Below are positions 7,202 to 20,053 of a stretch of DNA of 22,426 bases, one piece after another. Origin of the DNA: Syncephalis plumigaleata (lineage: Eukaryota; Zoopagomycota; Zoopagomycetes; Zoopagales; Piptocephalidaceae); the NCBI GenBank assembly GCA_025201365.1, contig JAIXMF010000223.1:1-22426 (forward strand), in the 5' to 3' direction. Under the pieces are notes generated by a model. It saw only the letters and a list, made by a program, of their open reading frames with translations, was not told the DNA's origin and made no database searches. Made by a program: the position numbers and the translations under genes. Each line of letters opens with the position of its first letter. Position 1 is the first letter of the stretch.

Positions 7202-10200
7202 ATGGTCGCCATTAAATATGAACTTACAATACTCCGTGTATGGGCAGTAATGACAATATTGGTGGCAGCATCGGGACTCATCGATACAGCCGCCATCAAC
7301 CCGGGACATGGTGTTCAGCTTCAACGACGACTCCTTAACAACCTGGTATCAAATGTTAATGACGATGTCAAGCTAGTCACCAATAAGCTGCCATTGAACA
7401 ATGTTGCCGGTAGTCCCAACACCGCTTCTGATGCATCTTTCGTTCCAGCCACCGAGACAACGACATTTGCGCCCGATAGCACCGGCCCTCCTCCTAGCCC
7501 TGCTCCGGCTAATAGTCCCGCGACTGTCGTAACAGCTCCAGCCGGTCCACCTCCAGCATCAAAGCCAAAAACAGATATTCCAATTGTAAGCAATCTATTG
7601 CAAACTGGTAATTCAAATGATGCATCTACAGCAGCAAATGTGCAAGACGCAACTGCTGCAACGAAGGTGGAACCAGCAACATTGCCAGTCTCGTCAAAAG
7701 CCGCATCACCAGTATCATCACCGGCAACATCGGAGACGCCTCGATCAACACAGCAGACTAATACTAATAGGCCAGCTAATAACAACTTGAGTAATCAAGG
7801 ACCAGTAGGTGGCCTTACCAACCTAGTGGGTCAAACTGTCGGCAAGGTTGAGAATGTAGTTGCACCACCACCACCATCGGTATCAAAGACGTCTGAACCT
7901 CCAGCAACATTCGTGCCAGCAACTGCTAACACTAGCAACAACAACAACAACGGTCCTACCATAGTGAATAACTTATTGGCACCTGTTAATGAGGTAGTAG
8001 GTCAAAACTCGGTCTCGCCTAGTACAGCACCAGCTACTAAGGAAATCGTATCCAATCAAGATGAAGAGGAGGACAAGGATACGACATCGACATCGACTGT
8101 TCCACCGGTAACTTTGTCAAAACCACCTCAAAAGAAGCCGATCTTATTGGGAGATACGCTCAATCATGTTGTTCAGCCAGTGACCGAGAACGTTGTCAAA
8201 CCAGTTACTGAAAAGGTTATCCAGCCAGTGACCGAGAACGTTATCAAGCCTGTAACTGAGAATGTTGTGAAGCCAGTAACCAAGAATGTTATCGAACCTG
8301 TAGCCGATGATATTTTCGAGCCTGTAACTGAGAACGTTGTCAAGCCAGTGACCGAGAAAGTCGTTAAACCAGTTACCGAAAAGGTTGTCGAGCCTGTAGC
8401 TGATGAGATTATTAATCCAGTGACCGAAAATGTTGTAAAGCCCGTGACCGAGAAAGTCGTTAAACCAGTAACTGGGAATGTTGTTACACCAGCAACTGAT
8501 GTAATCGCACCTGTATTTGGTTCAGCAACCGATGACATTATCAAGTCAATTAACAGTCCATCATTGCCTAGTCCAACGGCAACAGCGACCACAACATCCA
8601 CTGGCAATCCATTCTTGGTCAACAAACCAGCTGGTGGTGTTATTGGCGCGCTCAATAATGTAGTCGAACCTGTAGCCGCATCTCTTGTTTCTCCATTGTT
8701 GCCAACACCTACACCAACTGCTGGTAGCAAGCCTCTACTGCCATCGCTTATTCAAATACCAATTGGTTTACCAGGTCAAAAGGACGATACAACATCGAAG
8801 GAGACCAAGACATCTACCAATCCCCCGGCTAATGATGGTATCATTTCCCTTCCCATAGGATCAATTCTTCCGGATACACTGCCTAGTGTTCTACCATTGC
8901 CAGGTGGTACACCAACCGAATTCTTGCCACCTATTAATGGTGGAGTAATTGGTTCACCTCCACCCGATGCTGCTAACTCGCCAGCACTTCCTATACCTCA
9001 TCTACCTCTACCTTCTCTTCCACTACCTTCTCTTCCTTTACCTTCTCTACCATTGCCTTCTCTTCCGTTGCCTACAATTCCTGCGCCGCTACCTCCTGTG
9101 TCTCTTCCACCGGTGGTTCCATCGCTGCCTTTGCCTACAGGAGCACCGCAGCTTCCTCCAGTGTCTCTCCCACCGGTGGTTCCATCGTTGCCTCTGCCTT
9201 CTCTTCCATTGCCTACGGGAGCACCGCAGCTTCCTCCTATTTCATTACCACCATTAACACCATTACCTTTACCTTCTGTGCCCGTCATTCCATCGCAACC
9301 AATTGTTACTCTACCACCTGTCTCTGTACCAACGGCTATTCCTACAGCACCCGTTATTCCACCGGTAGTTGTACAGCCACCATCGGATAAGCCAGCTACT
9401 GTTAAACCATCTGTTCCACCACCAACGGTAACTCAGCCACCTCCACCTCCGCCAGGTCCATCTACGATCACAGTGGTGCCAACTGGTACTGGTACAATCA
9501 TCACGCAGCCTTCTCCTACCAATGAGGCTCCAGCTCCTCCTCCGGTGGTTCCAATTACACCTCCTACGATCACGGTTATTCCTACCGCGTCTAGCTCATC
9601 AATTCCACAGCCAACACCCACGGCATCTGTCTATCCTAAACCTGGATCGTCTGAAGCATCATCGTCGAATACGTGGTTGCCACCAACTGCTACCCTATCA
9701 TTGATTACCTCCTCGTATAGTTCTGCTGAGGCCGCTCAGCCTACGGGTAAATCACCGGTAATTGTAGCAAGCGACAATGTTGCTGTGTCGCAATCGGCTG
9801 CTTTGGTTGAATTGAGACTAGGTCAAATTGATTTCGCCGCCACCGCCAAGGATGGTATTCAATCGGCGCAGATCTTTGACAAGTTGGCCATCGACGTGGC
9901 TAACTCTCTTAATCTGCCACACGATCGAATTAAGGTGACCAAACTACGCGACGACAAGGGCAGTGTAGTGGCTCAACTGGCCATTCTTCCCGATGAAAGT
10001 AACCGAGTGCCGACGGAGACGGTGAACGTCCTACAAAGTTTGGTACAAGATCCGAACTCGTCATTGTATCGTAATGGTCAGATTGCCAAGTATATTGATC
10101 CATCCTATAAGATCACCACTCAGGCTCAGAATGCTTCAGGTCAACCGGATTCGGCGCAATCGAGCGATCGCCGCATTATAGTCATTTGTATTGCGGTTGT

Positions 10201-10327
10201 CTTGTCAGTGCTGTTGTACGCTGGTCTTACGGCAGCGTTCATCCACACTTATCGCCGTAACAAGCGTCGTCGCGAGCGTAACATGGCTGCCACAGGCTAC
10301 TTTGCCACGCCACAGCCACAGGCTTAA
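7202..10327 (+). CDS. Mucin-like type I membrane surface protein
   Basis: This is an intronless 1041-residue protein, probably anchored in the plasma membrane with its long ectodomain in the wall. An N-terminal hydrophobic segment (about 11-31) acts as signal peptide. Residues 75-320 are Thr/Ser/Pro/Asn-rich, suitable for dense O-mannosylation. Residues 323-434 are 14 tandem octapeptides of the pattern VVKPVTEN/K. About 595-700 is a PLPSL and proline repeat zone, then Pro/Thr/Ser linker to about 865. Residues 867-971 form a compact, non-repetitive domain with strand-helix-strand character (LVELRLGQIDF, then LPHDRIKV, then VVAQLAILPD), resembling SEA-like juxtamembrane modules of other surface proteins. 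One membrane helix covers about 992-1014, followed by a stop-transfer tail rich in Arg/Lys (1018-1026) and a 15-residue end. This layout resembles fungal wall-stress or osmosensing mucins in general form, but I see no specific homology, so a sensor role is inference. Confidence 0.85.
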   Translation: MVAIKYELTILRVWAVMTILVAASGLIDTAAINPGHGVQLQRRLLNNLVSNVNDDVKLVTNKLPLNNVAGSPNTASDASFVPATETTTFAPDSTGPPPSPAPANSPATVVTAPAGPPPASKPKTDIPIVSNLLQTGNSNDASTAANVQDATAATKVEPATLPVSSKAASPVSSPATSETPRSTQQTNTNRPANNNLSNQGPVGGLTNLVGQTVGKVENVVAPPPPSVSKTSEPPATFVPATANTSNNNNNGPTIVNNLLAPVNEVVGQNSVSPSTAPATKEIVSNQDEEEDKDTTSTSTVPPVTLSKPPQKKPILLGDTLNHVVQPVTENVVKPVTEKVIQPVTENVIKPVTENVVKPVTKNVIEPVADDIFEPVTENVVKPVTEKVVKPVTEKVVEPVADEIINPVTENVVKPVTEKVVKPVTGNVVTPATDVIAPVFGSATDDIIKSINSPSLPSPTATATTTSTGNPFLVNKPAGGVIGALNNVVEPVAASLVSPLLPTPTPTAGSKPLLPSLIQIPIGLPGQKDDTTSKETKTSTNPPANDGIISLPIGSILPDTLPSVLPLPGGTPTEFLPPINGGVIGSPPPDAANSPALPIPHLPLPSLPLPSLPLPSLPLPSLPLPTIPAPLPPVSLPPVVPSLPLPTGAPQLPPVSLPPVVPSLPLPSLPLPTGAPQLPPISLPPLTPLPLPSVPVIPSQPIVTLPPVSVPTAIPTAPVIPPVVVQPPSDKPATVKPSVPPPTVTQPPPPPPGPSTITVVPTGTGTIITQPSPTNEAPAPPPVVPITPPTITVIPTASSSSIPQPTPTASVYPKPGSSEASSSNTWLPPTATLSLITSSYSSAEAAQPTGKSPVIVASDNVAVSQSAALVELRLGQIDFAATAKDGIQSAQIFDKLAIDVANSLNLPHDRIKVTKLRDDKGSVVAQLAILPDESNRVPTETVNVLQSLVQDPNSSLYRNGQIAKYIDPSYKITTQAQNASGQPDSAQSSDRRIIVICIAVVLSVLLYAGLTAAFIHTYRRNKRRRERNMAATGYFATPQPQA
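8168..8503 (+). repeat. 14-copy, 24-bp octapeptide repeat array
   Basis: Fourteen in-register 24-bp units encode the octapeptide consensus V-[VI]-[KQE]-P-V-T-E-[NK]. Variant units carry VADD/VADE (three-step acidic change) about every four units. Codons for the same residues differ between units (for example Val and Thr third positions), so the array is old enough to have drifted silently while the peptide was kept. Related single units occur outside the array, at about 7970 (LLAPVNEVV) and about 8660 (VVEPVAASLV). Confidence 0.95.
9005..9079 (+). repeat. Five-copy PLPSL pentapeptide repeat
   Basis: Five 15-bp units encode PLPSL (the last drifts to PLPTI). Leu and Pro codons vary between units, which again points to selection on the peptide. 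Such proline-rich stretches form extended, stiff polyproline-type stalks that could hold a sensing domain away from the membrane. Confidence 0.92.
9092..9229 (+). repeat. Duplicated 60-75 bp segment in proline-rich stalk
   Basis: Copy 1 is about 9092-9151 and copy 2 about 9155-9229. Both encode PPVSLPPVVPSLPLPTGAPQ, but copy 2 carries one extra PLPSL unit. The near-identical bases indicate a recent in-frame duplication, younger than the octapeptide array. Confidence 0.88.
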
Positions 10328-10974: not shown

Positions 10975-13500
10975 TTATCCAAATACTAAACGAAGAATCA
11001 AGTATGCAACACTACCAACAAATCGGAAGGCAGATAGACCGGCTACCGACCAGAAGATAAAGGCCAAATAAGGATTGAACGTGCTTTCAGCGCCGACTTT
11101 CTGGTTGAACCATGGAATGAACGCCGGACTCGTGAAGATGACTACGAGCAATGCATTACTGAACATCCAGGCCAATACAAGATTTGTACGGAACAATTTG
11201 TAGTAATCTTCACGCTTTGTCGAGGCATCACGCTTCTCCTTGACTTCCTTGGGACGTACGGACAATTCCTGTAGTAGTTTGTCGTAGGCCGAGTTGATAT
11301 CTGCTTTCTCGGTGGGCAGTGAGACTTCCGCCACTTCCTTGCCACCCTCCTTACTAGCCTTAGCGTGACCGAGATCGTTGCTGGCCGAGTTGTCGCCCTT
11401 GGTACCCCATGACACATCGTGCGTATTACAGAACGCGTACACCATGAGAATGTTAACGAATGCCGGTAGCAATAGTAGATACTGGATGAACGAGGTAATC
11501 ATGTGCCATGGCTCAAAGTGCAACAACGAGCTAATGAGGTAGAGACCATAGGTGGAGGCCAAGGAGATGACGAGATTACGGAATGTCGGACTAGTAGTGA
11601 TCTTGTGGCCTACTTCCCTCCAGTCGTGCGTGTTACGCGGTGCTTGCAAGTAGACCGAGAAGCCAGCGACGTAGAGCATGAGGATCATAATGAGCGAGAA
11701 AGCGGCGATGGCAAACAGGTAAAGAGCGCGAGAACCTTGTGGACGATTACCGAGGGAAGCGACGAAGATCAATACAATAAGCAGAATGTAAAGCTGACGC
11801 ATAATCGTGAACACAATGTTACCGCGACCGAAGAATGGATCACTATCAGCTTGATAATGAGGATTGGAATCAGTATAGGCGACGGTAAGGAAGTAGAAGG
11901 CGAGGTAGAAGTTGGCCAATGAGAACCAACTGAACAACATGTTGATGGTGTTGTAGAAGAATTCAACGGTAAGCAGAAGCTTACGTAGAATGTTGTGACC
12001 GGATCGATAGATTTGGAAAAAGTTGAAAATGGCGTAGAAAGCCGCGAAGAACGAACCGTTCAACCAGCGACGACGCTGGGAAATGAACTCGCCAATACTG
12101 TCGGGCACGTCGGTCCACGCCTTGGCCGATTTGACGTATTTAAGTAGCCAGGAGGCACCTGGTTTGGCGACCAATTCAAAGCAGAGAATACGATCTTCCG
12201 CTAGGTACATGTTCGCTTCGAAGATACCGCCGGTGGCATTGGCACCGTGCATGGTCTCACCCTTGAAGTAGGAGTTGAGCGGACCACGGTCAGGAGCGAC
12301 GTTCTGCAAGGCGGCGAAGCGATAGGCCGAGAAAGCACCGGGCAACACGGAGATGTAGCCGAACACGGATTCCAATGGTTTGTCGAGAATGTTGGACATC
12401 TTGTACTCGAAGTTTTGCGTGGCAACGAGTGGATTCAACAGTAGGACACCGCCCTTACCGAGATCGGCACAGATCTCACCGCAGGCACCGCCCACGGATG
12501 GACTACGATCGAACGCTTTCCACAAATGGTAGATCGAGGTGCCGGATGGTTTGGTACCGACATCCAACAGAATACATACGTTTGGCTTGAGCACCTGACC
12601 GAATGCGTTGAAGAACCAACGATGCGAGTTGATCTTTTTGGCGTTACGTTCCTTGAGACAGAAGAGAATTTGTACTGGGACGACACCATCGTTGGCGGTG
12701 CGTACTTTCATCTCGGAATCCATGGAGATTTGAGTTGTATACTCGAATAAATGGGCGGTCACCTCCTTGCCGTTAAACGAGTTCTTCGCGATACCATCCT
12801 GGTAAGCGCCGATAGCACCGATCACCTTCAAGGTGCGCGGATGAATCTTGTTACGACCGTCGGAGACGATACAGACGACCACCTTCTTCCAGCCTTCTTG
12901 ACCCCACATACGCGAGCGGTTGCGAGAGCAAAGATGAGCCACGTTCTTCATGACCGAGTTGAACGTGCGGCAGAAGAGAATGTCATCCTCGTTGTACATG
13001 GTCATCACCACGAAGATTTCCGTTTCACGACCGTAGAGCACCGGGCGAAGGGTGTAGCGCTGGCTGACGAACTCGTTTGGATCGCTAGTACAGGCCGTGT
13101 AGCGCATATGCGTGAATTCCTCACCATCTCGATAGACGGCATTGGCGAGGACACGATCGGAAACCGGACAGTCAACCACCAAGTTACCGCTTGTCAACTC
13201 GATACGACGAATCGATCGTCGACGACCATCTTGATAGTTTTGATAGAGACGAGCATTAGGCGGTGGAGCATGGGCATTGTCGTACAATTGTTCCGGATTG
13301 TGCGAGCCAGATGCACCCTCGTAGTATTGTTGCTGTTGATGATGTTGCTGCTGCTGCTGCTGCGAAGGATAATACTCTTGATGTGATGTGGTGGTGGTGG
13401 TATGAGAACTTTGGAAGGTTTGCTGCGAATGTTGCGGTGGCAAATGCTGCGAACTACTCGATTGCGCCGGATAAGGCTGTTTATTGTAGTAGGGATCCAT
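10975..13500 (-). CDS. CHS: Chitin synthase, class I-III type (GT2)
   Basis: This intronless 841-residue integral membrane enzyme polymerises UDP-GlcNAc into chitin and extrudes it through the plasma membrane. Residues 1-92 are a disordered Gln/Ser/His/Tyr-rich tail with a poly-Gln run. About 96-165 matches the chitin synthase N-terminal domain ([16 protein letters not shown]). The catalytic GT2 domain follows: [31 protein letters not shown] (Asp313), [20 protein letters not shown], the EDR triad at 435-437 and QRRRW at 475-479. At least six C-terminal membrane segments follow, plus the [11 protein letters not shown] motif near 692-702. There is no myosin motor or cytochrome b5 domain, which excludes classes IV-VII. 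Motifs and length are those of a complete, active enzyme; assignment among classes I, II and III needs a tree. The gene is convergent with the surface-protein gene and divergent from the gene at 15804. Confidence 0.97.
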
Positions 13501-15803: not shown

Positions 15804-18666
15804 ATGAGTGATCCTATCAGTGGAACTGTTCAAGCTTTAGAGTTAGCAGGTCGTGCTGGCTATTTTATCTGGCAGGCAACACGTACCACACTTGATGTTC
15901 ACATCGACAATCGACATCCACATATAAAATTGCAAAATTTCGCGCGTTACTGCCATACCGGACGATGTACGGAGCCACAAGCGTTTAGAGTGTTGCCGCA
16001 GGAGAGCAGATCGTTTCAATTTATCGCCGACACGTTAGGACTACGTATTGATGGTTGTTGCGTCTACGGTATCACGCCGTATAATCGTCCGGCCACCACT
16101 ATTAATCGGATCTACTTGCTATTGGCATGGAGTATTCAATTAAACGGTGAATGTAAAACAACGCTCAATCTAGTCGAGACCTATAAGGGTCAGGATCTCA
16201 CGGGTAGCTTGCTGCAGCATCATTACATTAGCAAGATAGTGCCGAGTTTCGAGTCATCGGAAAACATGCTAACGCGTAGCTGGGATCTAATCGATCCGGA
16301 CACACGTTTCACGGTGAATCTCAGCCTTAACAATGCTGCCAGCGGTGTGATGAAAGTTGAAATTATACACGATGGCGAGAAGAGCTCCATTGATCGTCCG
16401 CATTTCGTTGGACTTGACTAGTAAGCTGATGCGCGAAATGAAAAGCATATCTATCATGTATATTCTAACGACTATTATTGTAGTTTCAAAGATGTGATAT
16501 TTAAGGATACAGGTAAGTATACATACTTTCATCGATTACTGATGATATTATACGCTAACGTAAATGATATACATGTGTGCATGTGTTGTCTTCCAATAGA
16601 TGAATTAGAAGGATTAGATGCATCCAAGGATCGATTTGGATTGACTAGCAGTATCTCCGTGCATATTGACAATAATTGCGAATCATTGGCCTTGATCCAC
16701 TGCGAGACTTACTCGATTAGCGGCAAGTTGAAAGAGAATGAAAACAGAGCGATTTACTATGGGGCTCAGTCGAGACATCGATTCAAGAACGGGACACCAT
16801 TGGGGCGTACTAGCGGTGTGCTCGTCTACGAGTTGATCCACGACGCGGAGAATGCCCCGGCAATATTGTGGGGATATCGCGTGTTTCTAGCGGTTGATTT
16901 CCTAGTGACATCGCATAATGCCGTAGCACGCACGGTATCCATTACACTTTTAGCCGTAAGGGATGTAAGATTCCCGAATTCTGATCGGGATCCATTATTA
17001 CGCGCTCATGAAAAGGTTCTAAGTCATCATATGGTCACATTCGGTAAATCTTCAGTCTGGGATCTGCACGATTTGAACCTGAAGATATGGGCCGACTTTA
17101 AACGCTCACCGCATGCAAAGTTGTACCTTCGTTTGGAGAAAGCGAGATTCAGGAATCATCATGCCATACCATTGTTCTTGCCCACTAACGAGAACAGGCA
17201 AGTATAAATGAAAGTTTAATGGAAAAGAAACATTGTTTGCTAACATTGACATCGTAACAGTCAAGTATCCAGCGGTGCACGTAATGCCATTAAGCAGTAC
17301 ATCACATCGAATACCGAAGCAGATGGTATAAACGTGGTTGAAATAGCAGATGATCTAAAGGTTAAGCTGCAATACATTACACCAAGTCATGCTGGTCGTG
17401 GCACCTTAGTAAAATGCCAATGTAATAATCAAACACTTTCCTCTGGCAGTTGGTGTATTACTCGAAAGAATGTCCCCGAGAAGAACTGGTCCATGGAGCA
17501 TTACTACCTGATTACACCTACATTCTCAGCTACTCGATCGCCATATCAATGCGTACTGTACGTAAGACGTGACCATGTCTCATTCACCGTGGCACCGGTA
17601 TTCATACTTCGTGACGATTCTATTGGCGAGGAATTGAAAGATGATGTCGACAACTTCCTTAATCAGTCCTATTTAGTGGGCGAACACATGGCAAGTGCTG
17701 GCAATTCCTATGATCACGGGCGGATCATGGAGCGTCGAGTTCAACTACCGGGCAATGTTAACTTTCAATTGCTAGCCTACATGAACTCGCAACCGTGTAG
17801 ACTATTTAAACTATTACTAAAACGAGAGTTTATTCCAGAGGTAACCAATGAATAATAACGATAATAATCTGTTAACTAATAGTAATATGGTTCATAGGAA
17901 TTCCATAGGGAAGCAAGAATCAATTCAGGTAAGTCGACAAGAGAAAGGAAATGAATAGAGCAATGCATCATGTTTATAACACCATCGTAGAACAACCATT
18001 CATGGCCACGCCTTATACTTATGTTGTTATCCTGGACAACAAGCATACCGATATGAAACTAAAGCTTGCTAGCTATTTCTCCACCGGTATTCCGAATAAC
18101 ATTCAGCGAGATGAGGCATTGCCACCGGGAGAAACGAAAACCATAACGTTTACTCTATTCGCCAATGATTTACGCCATGGTATTGCATTAACTTATCGCA
18201 CTGGTGGCAATAACCCCATCACGGTGGAGATTCAAGCGAATATGAGCGTGGAGAATACATCTCTACTGCATAGCACGGCGATATCCTACAAAACGGCAAA
18301 TGATAAGAAAATCAAGATTGGCGGCAAGAATAGATTTCGTGTAGAAACATTGCAGGAACGATTTAACGAGGATGAAGAACTGCAAAACACATTTGCCGTC
18401 GAGAGTAAACGTGTAGAGGCAGATGGTATGCAGCACTACGTGGCTATCGGACATACTGGAATGCATAGCATGCCAAGAACCTCATATGTTGCGATACAAT
18501 TCAACAACAATAACATCAACAATGATGAAGATGATGAAGAAGATGAATTAGCGGTAAGTTTTACTCGTTTATTATCAGTCTATATATTACCCTTACTAAT
18601 ATTACCAATAATCAGACGAAGCAAGCATGTACCGACCTATTAAATTCTGTCATGGCGACGGAATAA
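15804..18666 (+). CDS. Four-domain actinoporin-like protein (822 aa)
   Basis: I place seven exons: 15804-16420, 16484-16512, 16600-17197, 17261-17840, 17898-17928, 17991-18553, 18616-18666. All phases agree and give 822 residues. Four repeats of about 160-190 residues occur, near 30-187, 234-402, 440-605 and 628-789. Repeats 1, 2 and 4 begin with a strand ending in IDN, IDN or LDN, then a conserved Tyr with Ser/Thr-Gly (for example YCHTG, YFSTG). Repeats 1 and 2 then have a GCCVYGI or GVLVYEL strand and a hydrophobic strand such as LLLAWSI. Each repeat closes with a strand pair like VMKVEII or KLYLRLEK. This order resembles the actinoporin/cytolysin-lectin fold (known in sea anemone pore formers and related fungal lectins). 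Residues 1-27 could be an amphipathic helix; there is no signal peptide. Residues 790-805 are an Asn/acid linker. Repeat 3 is the most diverged. Fold assignment is from pattern similarity only; membrane or lipid binding is inferred and pore formation is not shown. Confidence 0.6.
17198..17260 (+). other. GC-AG intron (intron 3 of tandem-domain gene)
   Basis: This 63-base intron starts with GCAAGT after an exon ending in ACAG, has a GCTAAC branch-like motif, and ends in AACAG. It is the only placement that links exon 3 to exon 4 in phase. All other introns placed in this window start with GT. GC-AG introns are a minor but normal class. Confidence 0.75.
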
Positions 18667-18826: not shown

Positions 18827-20053
18827 ATGTTGTCTAGAATTCGTAGTCCCACACTGGTGCATTGCTTGAGAGTGGCGTGCACTCGTCGTTACTCGTCGTT
18901 GCAATGTCCCGAGTATGATTCTGAAGCGTTAGAAACAACTATTGACAATTGGAAAAGGGATATAATGAATAAATACACGGTGGAGCTTGATACGATAACC
19001 GCCTCACCATACACCTCGATGTGTATGACATTGAATCGGCCCTTGTCTACGCGGACATGTCCACTATTGTCGCCATTAAGCTCGGTGCCTAACGAGGTAT
19101 CATCGACATCGACTGTAAACGATGATGTTGAGCTACTGGAGCCAGCATCTGGCACGCCATTACCACTCAACTGGCATCTAGCCTATTTTCCCGCTCGACT
19201 ACGTGAAAGTCAACTGGCCTCTGATGGCTATGAACCGCAATGGCAACCGCCACCACCGTTCGAGCGTCGAGTATGGGCTAGCGGCAAGCTAAAATGGTGG
19301 CCCGACAATCCGCTCTGTATTGGTGATCGAGCACAACAAGAAACGCGCTGTCTATCCGTTGACGTGAAGCAAGGCAATTTGGGCACAACGATATTCGTAA
19401 CTACGGAGCAGACCACCAAGAATGTTCATGGTCCCACCGTCACTGATGAACGCTGTCTGGCTTACATGTCCACGGAAGTGGATCCAATACCGAAACCGAA
19501 ACTAGTAGCATGTAAGTAGCATGTAAGTAGCAATACGATCAATAATCGATAATAACTTTGCATGTGTAAATACAGCTAATAGAATACCCGAGTTCTCTCA
19601 TACGTTCATACCGACACCTATCACTTTATTCCGTTACTCTGCCCTCACTTTCAATAGTCATCGAATTCATTTTGATCATCAATATGCAACGGTAGAGGAG
19701 GGCTACCCGGGTAGGCTGCCACACCATTCTAACGGTATAACGCGAAACTAATAGAATGTAATTGATTATTTATAGCGCCATTAGTGCATGGTCCATTCAC
19801 GTGTACACTATTACTCGGTCTTTTGGAGGAGCAACTAGTGCAGCATGCAAAGAAACTACGTATTGACTCGTTTTCCTATCGTGCCATCAGTCCATTGTAT
19901 TGCGGACAACCACTCACGCTAAATGGTCGATGGATTACTAGTTCGGAATCGGATACCGATCCATCTAGGCTAAAATGCCATCTATGGGCCAACAACGAGC
20001 AAGGCGGTCTAGCAATGTCAGGTACAGCTACTGTCGATGTATTGAATGAGTAA
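18827..20053 (+). CDS. HTD2: Mitochondrial 3-hydroxyacyl-thioester dehydratase (HTD2-like)
   Basis: Three exons, 18827-19511, 19576-19710 and 19776-20053, give 365 residues with consistent phase. The first ~24 residues (Arg-rich, no acids, MLSRIRSP... CTRRYSS) look like a mitochondrial presequence. The N-terminal half carries the conserved segment LPLNWHLAYFPARLRESQL and FERRVWASGKLKWW, typical of the FAS1-like/MaoC N-terminal hotdog. The C-terminal hotdog has RYSALTFNSHRIHFD (residues 248-262) and EEGYPAPLVHGPF, which hold the hydratase active-site Asn/His/Asp region. HTD2 enzymes dehydrate 3-hydroxyacyl-ACP in mitochondrial type II fatty acid synthesis, which supplies the lipoate precursor; related proteins act as mesaconyl- or itaconyl-CoA hydratases, which I cannot exclude. 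Intron 1 has a duplicated donor site. The gene is 160 bases downstream of its neighbour and convergent with MED6. Confidence 0.9.
19505..19532 (+). repeat. 11-bp tandem repeat duplicating a 5' splice site
   Basis: The unit GTAGCATGTAA is present twice plus a partial third copy. Each full unit, with the next base pair, makes a GTAAGT donor, at 19512 and 19523. Only the first gives an open spliced frame; use of the second would retain an in-frame TAG. Confidence 0.9.

Follow-up and report, generated by a model that had tools for sequence, protein, structure and literature searches.

A family of tandem domain arrays in Syncephalis plumigaleata with a predicted actinoporin fold in the first repeat of an 822-residue protein

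The stretch of DNA that was analysed (the window) consists of 22,426 nucleotides of contig JAIXMF010000223.1 (C139) from the Syncephalis plumigaleata assembly GCA_025201365.1. Syncephalis is described as a mycoparasite genus (PMC10386755). The gene reported here is located on the plus strand from the ATG at 15804 to the stop at 18666, and its product acquires 822 amino acids when its six introns (63, 87, 63, 57, 62, and 62 bases in order) are spliced. The product differs by one residue from its database match, P0001, which is listed as 'hypothetical protein BDF22DRAFT_690085 [Syncephalis plumigaleata]'. The product was divided into four segments using limits that are our own cuts, and all four segments are encoded by one exon apiece. 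A predicted N-terminal helix (residues 4-25; 15813-15878) is followed by repeat 1 (residues 27-202; 15882-16409), repeat 2 (residues 230-410; 16641-17183), segment 3 (residues 434-607; 17316-17837), and segment 4 (residues 625-780; 18008-18475). According to the splicing model, repeats 1 and 2 are separated by a micro-exon of 29 nucleotides (16484-16512) between intron 1 (16421-16483) and intron 2 (16513-16599). Intron 3 (17198-17260) is a GC-AG intron. Segments 3 and 4 are separated by a micro-exon of 31 nucleotides (17898-17928) between intron 4 (17841-17897) and intron 5 (17929-17990). Intron 6 is located at 18554-18615.

Relatives of the repeats were identified at seven loci in the same genome (C139/C2, C79, C1 minus, C1 plus, C373, C46/C266, and C223/C360), where the C223/C360 locus is apparently also present as C250. 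A family hidden Markov model (HMM) was constructed from 13 repeats of C1 minus, C1 plus, C373, and P0005, and the repeats of the C139/C2 gene, P0002-P0004, and C79 were left out. On P0001, this HMM scores repeat 1 at 75.7 bits, a value raised in part by selection as repeat 1 was the query that led to the C1 and C373 loci, and repeat 2 at 22.8 bits, which this selection does not raise. The best score among 1000 shuffles of the whole P0001 is 2.8 bits. Profile comparison with the family (hhalign) gives 99.7% for repeat 1 (E-value 2.4e-25) and 96.0% for a four-row profile of repeat 2 (E-value 4.7e-9), where each E-value applies to one comparison. The profiles of repeats 1 and 2 (4 and 3 rows) compared head-on give just 27.6% (E-value 6.5e-4); therefore, their link goes mainly via the repeats of other genes. 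The HMM scores above the shuffles and the profile comparison establish two of the four segments, repeats 1 and 2, as homologous repeats beyond chance at the level of sequence.

The translation exhibits the motifs that the first-pass annotation had described for repeats 1, 2, and 4. The N-terminal (I/L)DN reads HIDN, HIDN, and ILDN, and the Tyr...Ser/Thr-Gly turn reads RYCHTG, TYSISG, and SYFSTG, respectively. The G-V-x-Y strand that it had assigned to repeats 1 and 2 is exact in repeat 2 (GVLVY) but reads GCCVY in repeat 1, so that the shared form is G..VY.

The structure model of repeat 1 is confident and its top PDB matches are actinoporins. The model consists of a beta-sandwich and two helices, where the N-terminal helix precedes strand 1 and the second helix precedes the last three strands, which matches solved actinoporin structures. 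The sandwich had been anticipated as a cytolysin/lectin one, as in fungal fruit-body lectins, and the structure search recovered it with actinoporins as the best matches. We predict from this model that repeat 1 has the actinoporin fold. The fold would extend to repeat 2 by sequence homology, and segments 3 and 4 possibly share it. A match of the whole protein to another family was also looked for, and the gene product had no match at the cut-off of any Pfam or NCBIfam family. PF06369 (actinoporin) has no match in the whole protein, the four segments, or 19 repeats, and its genome search was empty, as were its controls (0/14). PF07367 (fruit-body lectin) has no match in the protein scans and none in the organism's own genome, where the controls gave 1/14 and none over the cut-off.

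The main larger result is a family of domain arrays, which goes beyond the fold call for a single protein. The repeat numbers at the paralogue loci are counts of open frames and not confirmed gene models, and the open-frame HMM was built partly from the repeats that it scores, so that those scores are high by construction. C1 minus has five open frames, of which the third is split into two pieces with weak scores of 10.9 and 13.2 bits. C1 plus has five open frames with the third at 17.8 bits, and two further frames downstream (101.6 and 46.9 bits). The C1 arrays lie head to head (L021:340-9728); the one on the minus strand holds about five repeats and its plus-strand counterpart at least five. 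C46 has seven open frames in a row (L041:2345-9215; copy on C266); six score in the HMM, the third only 3.5. C223 has four open frames with 12.4 to 47.5 bits, and this divergent array recurs almost unchanged on the reverse strand of C250 and has a match on C360 (L043:2568-6771, L044:1842-6038). C79 and C373 have four segments each, counted as open frames, of which the HMM scores the first two only; segments 3 and 4 have at most 3.5 bits or no row, like those of the C139/C2 gene. The first repeat of C79 (L020:2748-3282) is not one open frame, which denotes an intron, a frame break, or an assembly error. P0005 from S. pseudoplumigaleata consists of 1516 residues with six repeats and shares 76% identity with the C1 plus model. 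Five of its repeats score at least 41 bits (four of them in the HMM build) and the third scores 8.2.

The best partner in another gene is at the same position for 15 of the 17 repeats of C1 minus, C1 plus, and C46. Permutation gives a mean of 2.8, and 15 was reached in 0 of 10,000 permutations. The three third repeats are tied to one another just weakly, at 21-22%. The two exceptions are repeats 6 and 7 of C46, for which the compared frames held no same-position partner. The repeat order in these three genes thus predates their duplication, and each repeat position has diverged separately. Beyond this genome, repeat 2 of P0003 matches the C79 paralogue at 51% and the C139/C2 gene at 35%. P0002 from S. 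fuscata stops at 624 amino acids, directly after segment 3, which is either a real truncation or a fault of the gene model. The protein searches returned matches only from Syncephalis, plus P0004 from one contig. Each of these searches depends on five-residue words in common, scored about 8000 candidates, and is blind to distant relatives; hence, a genus-specific distribution may merely mirror their reach. We put forward, as a doubtful extension, that Syncephalis-specific concatemers of the actinoporin fold, encoded at seven loci and with as many as seven position-specialised domains in a chain, would be pre-assembled intracellular membrane coats or sensors, in which a pore-forming fold was made into a linear scaffold.

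A separate question is whether the fold is confined to repeats 1 and 2, where segments 3 and 4 would be unrelated beta-rich domains and the product would have two repeats and a tail of another kind. Segment 3 scores 0.4 bits with the 13-repeat HMM and 2.8% in the profile comparison with the family, and segment 3 with its preceding helix does not connect to other genes' third repeats in profile comparison. Segment 4 has no positive HMM score and gives 3.3% alone. The restriction of family scores to the first two segments in C79 and C373, and the end of P0002 after segment 3, also point to two repeats. However, the four segments have similar lengths and one exon each, and segment 3 in the low-confidence model consists of strands and then a helix at 535-550, with few closing strands. 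The start of segment 4 is family-like (ILDN...SYFSTG), and its first 70 or so residues are weakly family-like when segment 4 of C373 is added (38.6% over 70 columns, E-value 3.2e-4; 25.6% with a larger profile). The very divergent third repeats of the C1 and C46 genes, which give 21-22% singly, also reach 94% with the family once they are combined.

Segments 3 and 4 only possibly have the fold because the model of the whole protein cannot be relied on in that part (means of the predicted local distance difference test, pLDDT, over 10 residues are 22-53 past residue 200) and the sequence links are absent or weak. Both segments are possibly members of the family based on their length, exon layout, the motif in segment 4, and the elements of the low-confidence model, and the sequence kinship of segment 4 is weak. 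Thus, the four tandem actinoporin-like domains of the first-pass annotation hold for repeat 1 by prediction and, by homology, for repeat 2; segment 3 has no sequence kinship with the repeats and segment 4 a weak one, and both possibly have the fold. We consider the confinement of the fold to repeats 1 and 2 somewhat unlikely. Before segment 3, a stretch at 17265-17315 (S..A.N.I..Y..S) is conserved in P0001-P0003 and is modelled as a short helix with low confidence.

We tentatively favour, at a level a little short of even, an intracellular (cytosolic) multivalent membrane-binding scaffold over a secreted pore-forming toxin. The pre-linked membrane-binding assembly or scaffold that the first-pass annotation had suggested would be the most economical reading. 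It is placed ahead of a recognition array, and a pore and a parasitism effector are less likely. We infer the cytosolic location, the lipid binding, the scaffold role with all of its functional steps, and the fold of the last two segments. The N-terminal helix of repeat 1 would lie in or on the bilayer as in actinoporins, and the first sandwich would dock onto lipid head groups. The later segments, each diverged, would add lipid, glycan, or protein contacts, and one chain would thereby tie several ligands together. A membrane role is favoured because of the predicted actinoporin fold, the N-terminal helix that forms a conserved block in three species (P0002 and P0003 in the alignment with P0001), and the precedent of Nakanori, a non-lytic fungal protein of this topology that binds lipid (PMC8067419). 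The toxin is disfavoured because the hydropathy of the product reveals no signal-like N-terminus and no transmembrane stretch, only one long helix (22 residues) is predicted per chain, and the predicted turn at residues 113-116 has no aromatics where actinoporins carry an aromatic loop. Each subunit contributes one helix to the classical actinoporin pore, and such a pore is not the expected product because one long helix is predicted per chain.

Several observations weigh against the membrane-binding scaffold. The predicted N-terminal helix has modest amphipathicity, as its best moment within residues 1-25 is 0.41, which was reached by 239 of 5000 shuffles. P0001-P0004 have moments of 0.45-0.50, but in windows that extend beyond the helix, and the moment for P0005 is 0.25. 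The helix, assigned by DSSP on the model, has a pLDDT of 54-71. Actinoporins have an aromatic head-group binding patch and an aromatic loop with P-[WYF]-D. In the repeat 1 model, strands 5 and 6 are joined by a turn of four residues without aromatics and the second helix has one Tyr; hence, the aromatic patch is not evident and lipid binding may be lost. The longest VIA alignments cover model residues 1-193 with 168-172 residues aligned (root-mean-square deviation 5.4-5.7), and their targets are pore-state or lipid-bound structures, which leaves room for pore formation. Short helices of low confidence also occur at 420-427 (before segment 3) and 607-613 (before segment 4).

The repeats may instead be cytosolic lectin-like or protein-binding modules with different ligands that perform self/non-self or host recognition, by analogy with Podospora het-B. 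In that protein, the FB-lectin-like domain is described as deciding recognition specificity (PMC10890737). No HET domain was found among the Pfam matches of the gene product, P0002, P0003, P0004, and P0005, and we regard such a recognition array as unlikely. A concatenated pore, built by several chains or by one chain and its partners from linked actinoporin-fold units, is quite improbable. The helix and sandwich are actinoporin-like, octameric and nonameric pores give the longest structural alignments, and the short helices ahead of segments 3 and 4 would be in line with it. However, the long predicted helix occurs in repeat 1 only, the N-terminus is not signal-like by hydropathy, and Nakanori is described as an example where the fold is non-lytic (PMC8067419). 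An effector of parasitism, exported with no signal peptide and directed at host-fungus membranes, is equally improbable: oomycete actinoporin-like proteins are described as virulence factors (PMC9526159), but the product has no signal-like segment by hydropathy and, in the same source, bryoporin is described as binding none of the fungal sphingolipids assayed.

A second copy of the gene is present on contig C2 of the same genome. C139 looks like the other haplotype of C2 because the two stretches compared are 98.1% identical over about 8.7 kb and 99.1% identical over about 10.0 kb. The neighbours in the window are a family 20 beta-hexosaminidase (167-1939), a chitin synthase (10975-13500), and a FAS1-like dehydratase-region protein (18827-19519). 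The window also has a proline-rich open reading frame of 1041 amino acids (7202-10327) with KPVTENV-type repeats and a hydrophobic stretch near the C-terminus, which has no Pfam match at an E-value of 0.01.

The actinoporin fold is mostly known from single-domain proteins that come together on membranes. An early-diverging mycoparasite with arrays of linked domains, whose order was kept through gene duplication, would illustrate how a pore-forming fold can be reused as a multivalent module. The arrays would be natural pre-linked assemblies for testing the number and order of membrane-binding units, and a likely fold can now be assigned to proteins annotated merely as hypothetical.

In the single open-access library searched, no paper joining Syncephalis and actinoporin was found and no account of tandem or multidomain actinoporin-fold proteins was noticed among the papers listed. 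Actinoporins are single-domain proteins of about 20 kDa. Repeat 1 shares the predicted fold and both helix positions with actinoporins and actinoporin-like proteins (FraC, equinatoxin II, sticholysin, Fav, and bryoporin). Unlike them, the Syncephalis protein has 822 amino acids, at least two linked homologous domains, no signal-like N-terminus, no PF06369 match, and only 8-14% sequence identity to them over the structurally aligned residues of the repeat 1 model. Nakanori from Grifola frondosa (5h0q) is described as a non-lytic sphingomyelin/cholesterol binder of 23 kDa with actinoporin-like topology (PMC8067419), and its structural score is below the first 16 actinoporin rows. The aegerolysins (OlyA and PlyA) are shorter and have a lower structural score than actinoporins, and PlyA is described as having no actinoporin N-terminal region (PMC8067419). 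The alignments of the fruit-body lectins (BEL, XCL, ABL, and SRL) begin at model residue 26-27 and exclude the N-terminal helix; these lectins are single domains of about 142 residues, and the Syncephalis protein has no PF07367 match. HET proteins of the het-B kind are described as having one C-terminal FB-lectin-like domain after HET and HAD (PMC10890737). The Syncephalis protein is similar to het-B in that both are fungal proteins in which such a domain is combined with others but, unlike het-B, it has no HET match and repeats the domain itself.
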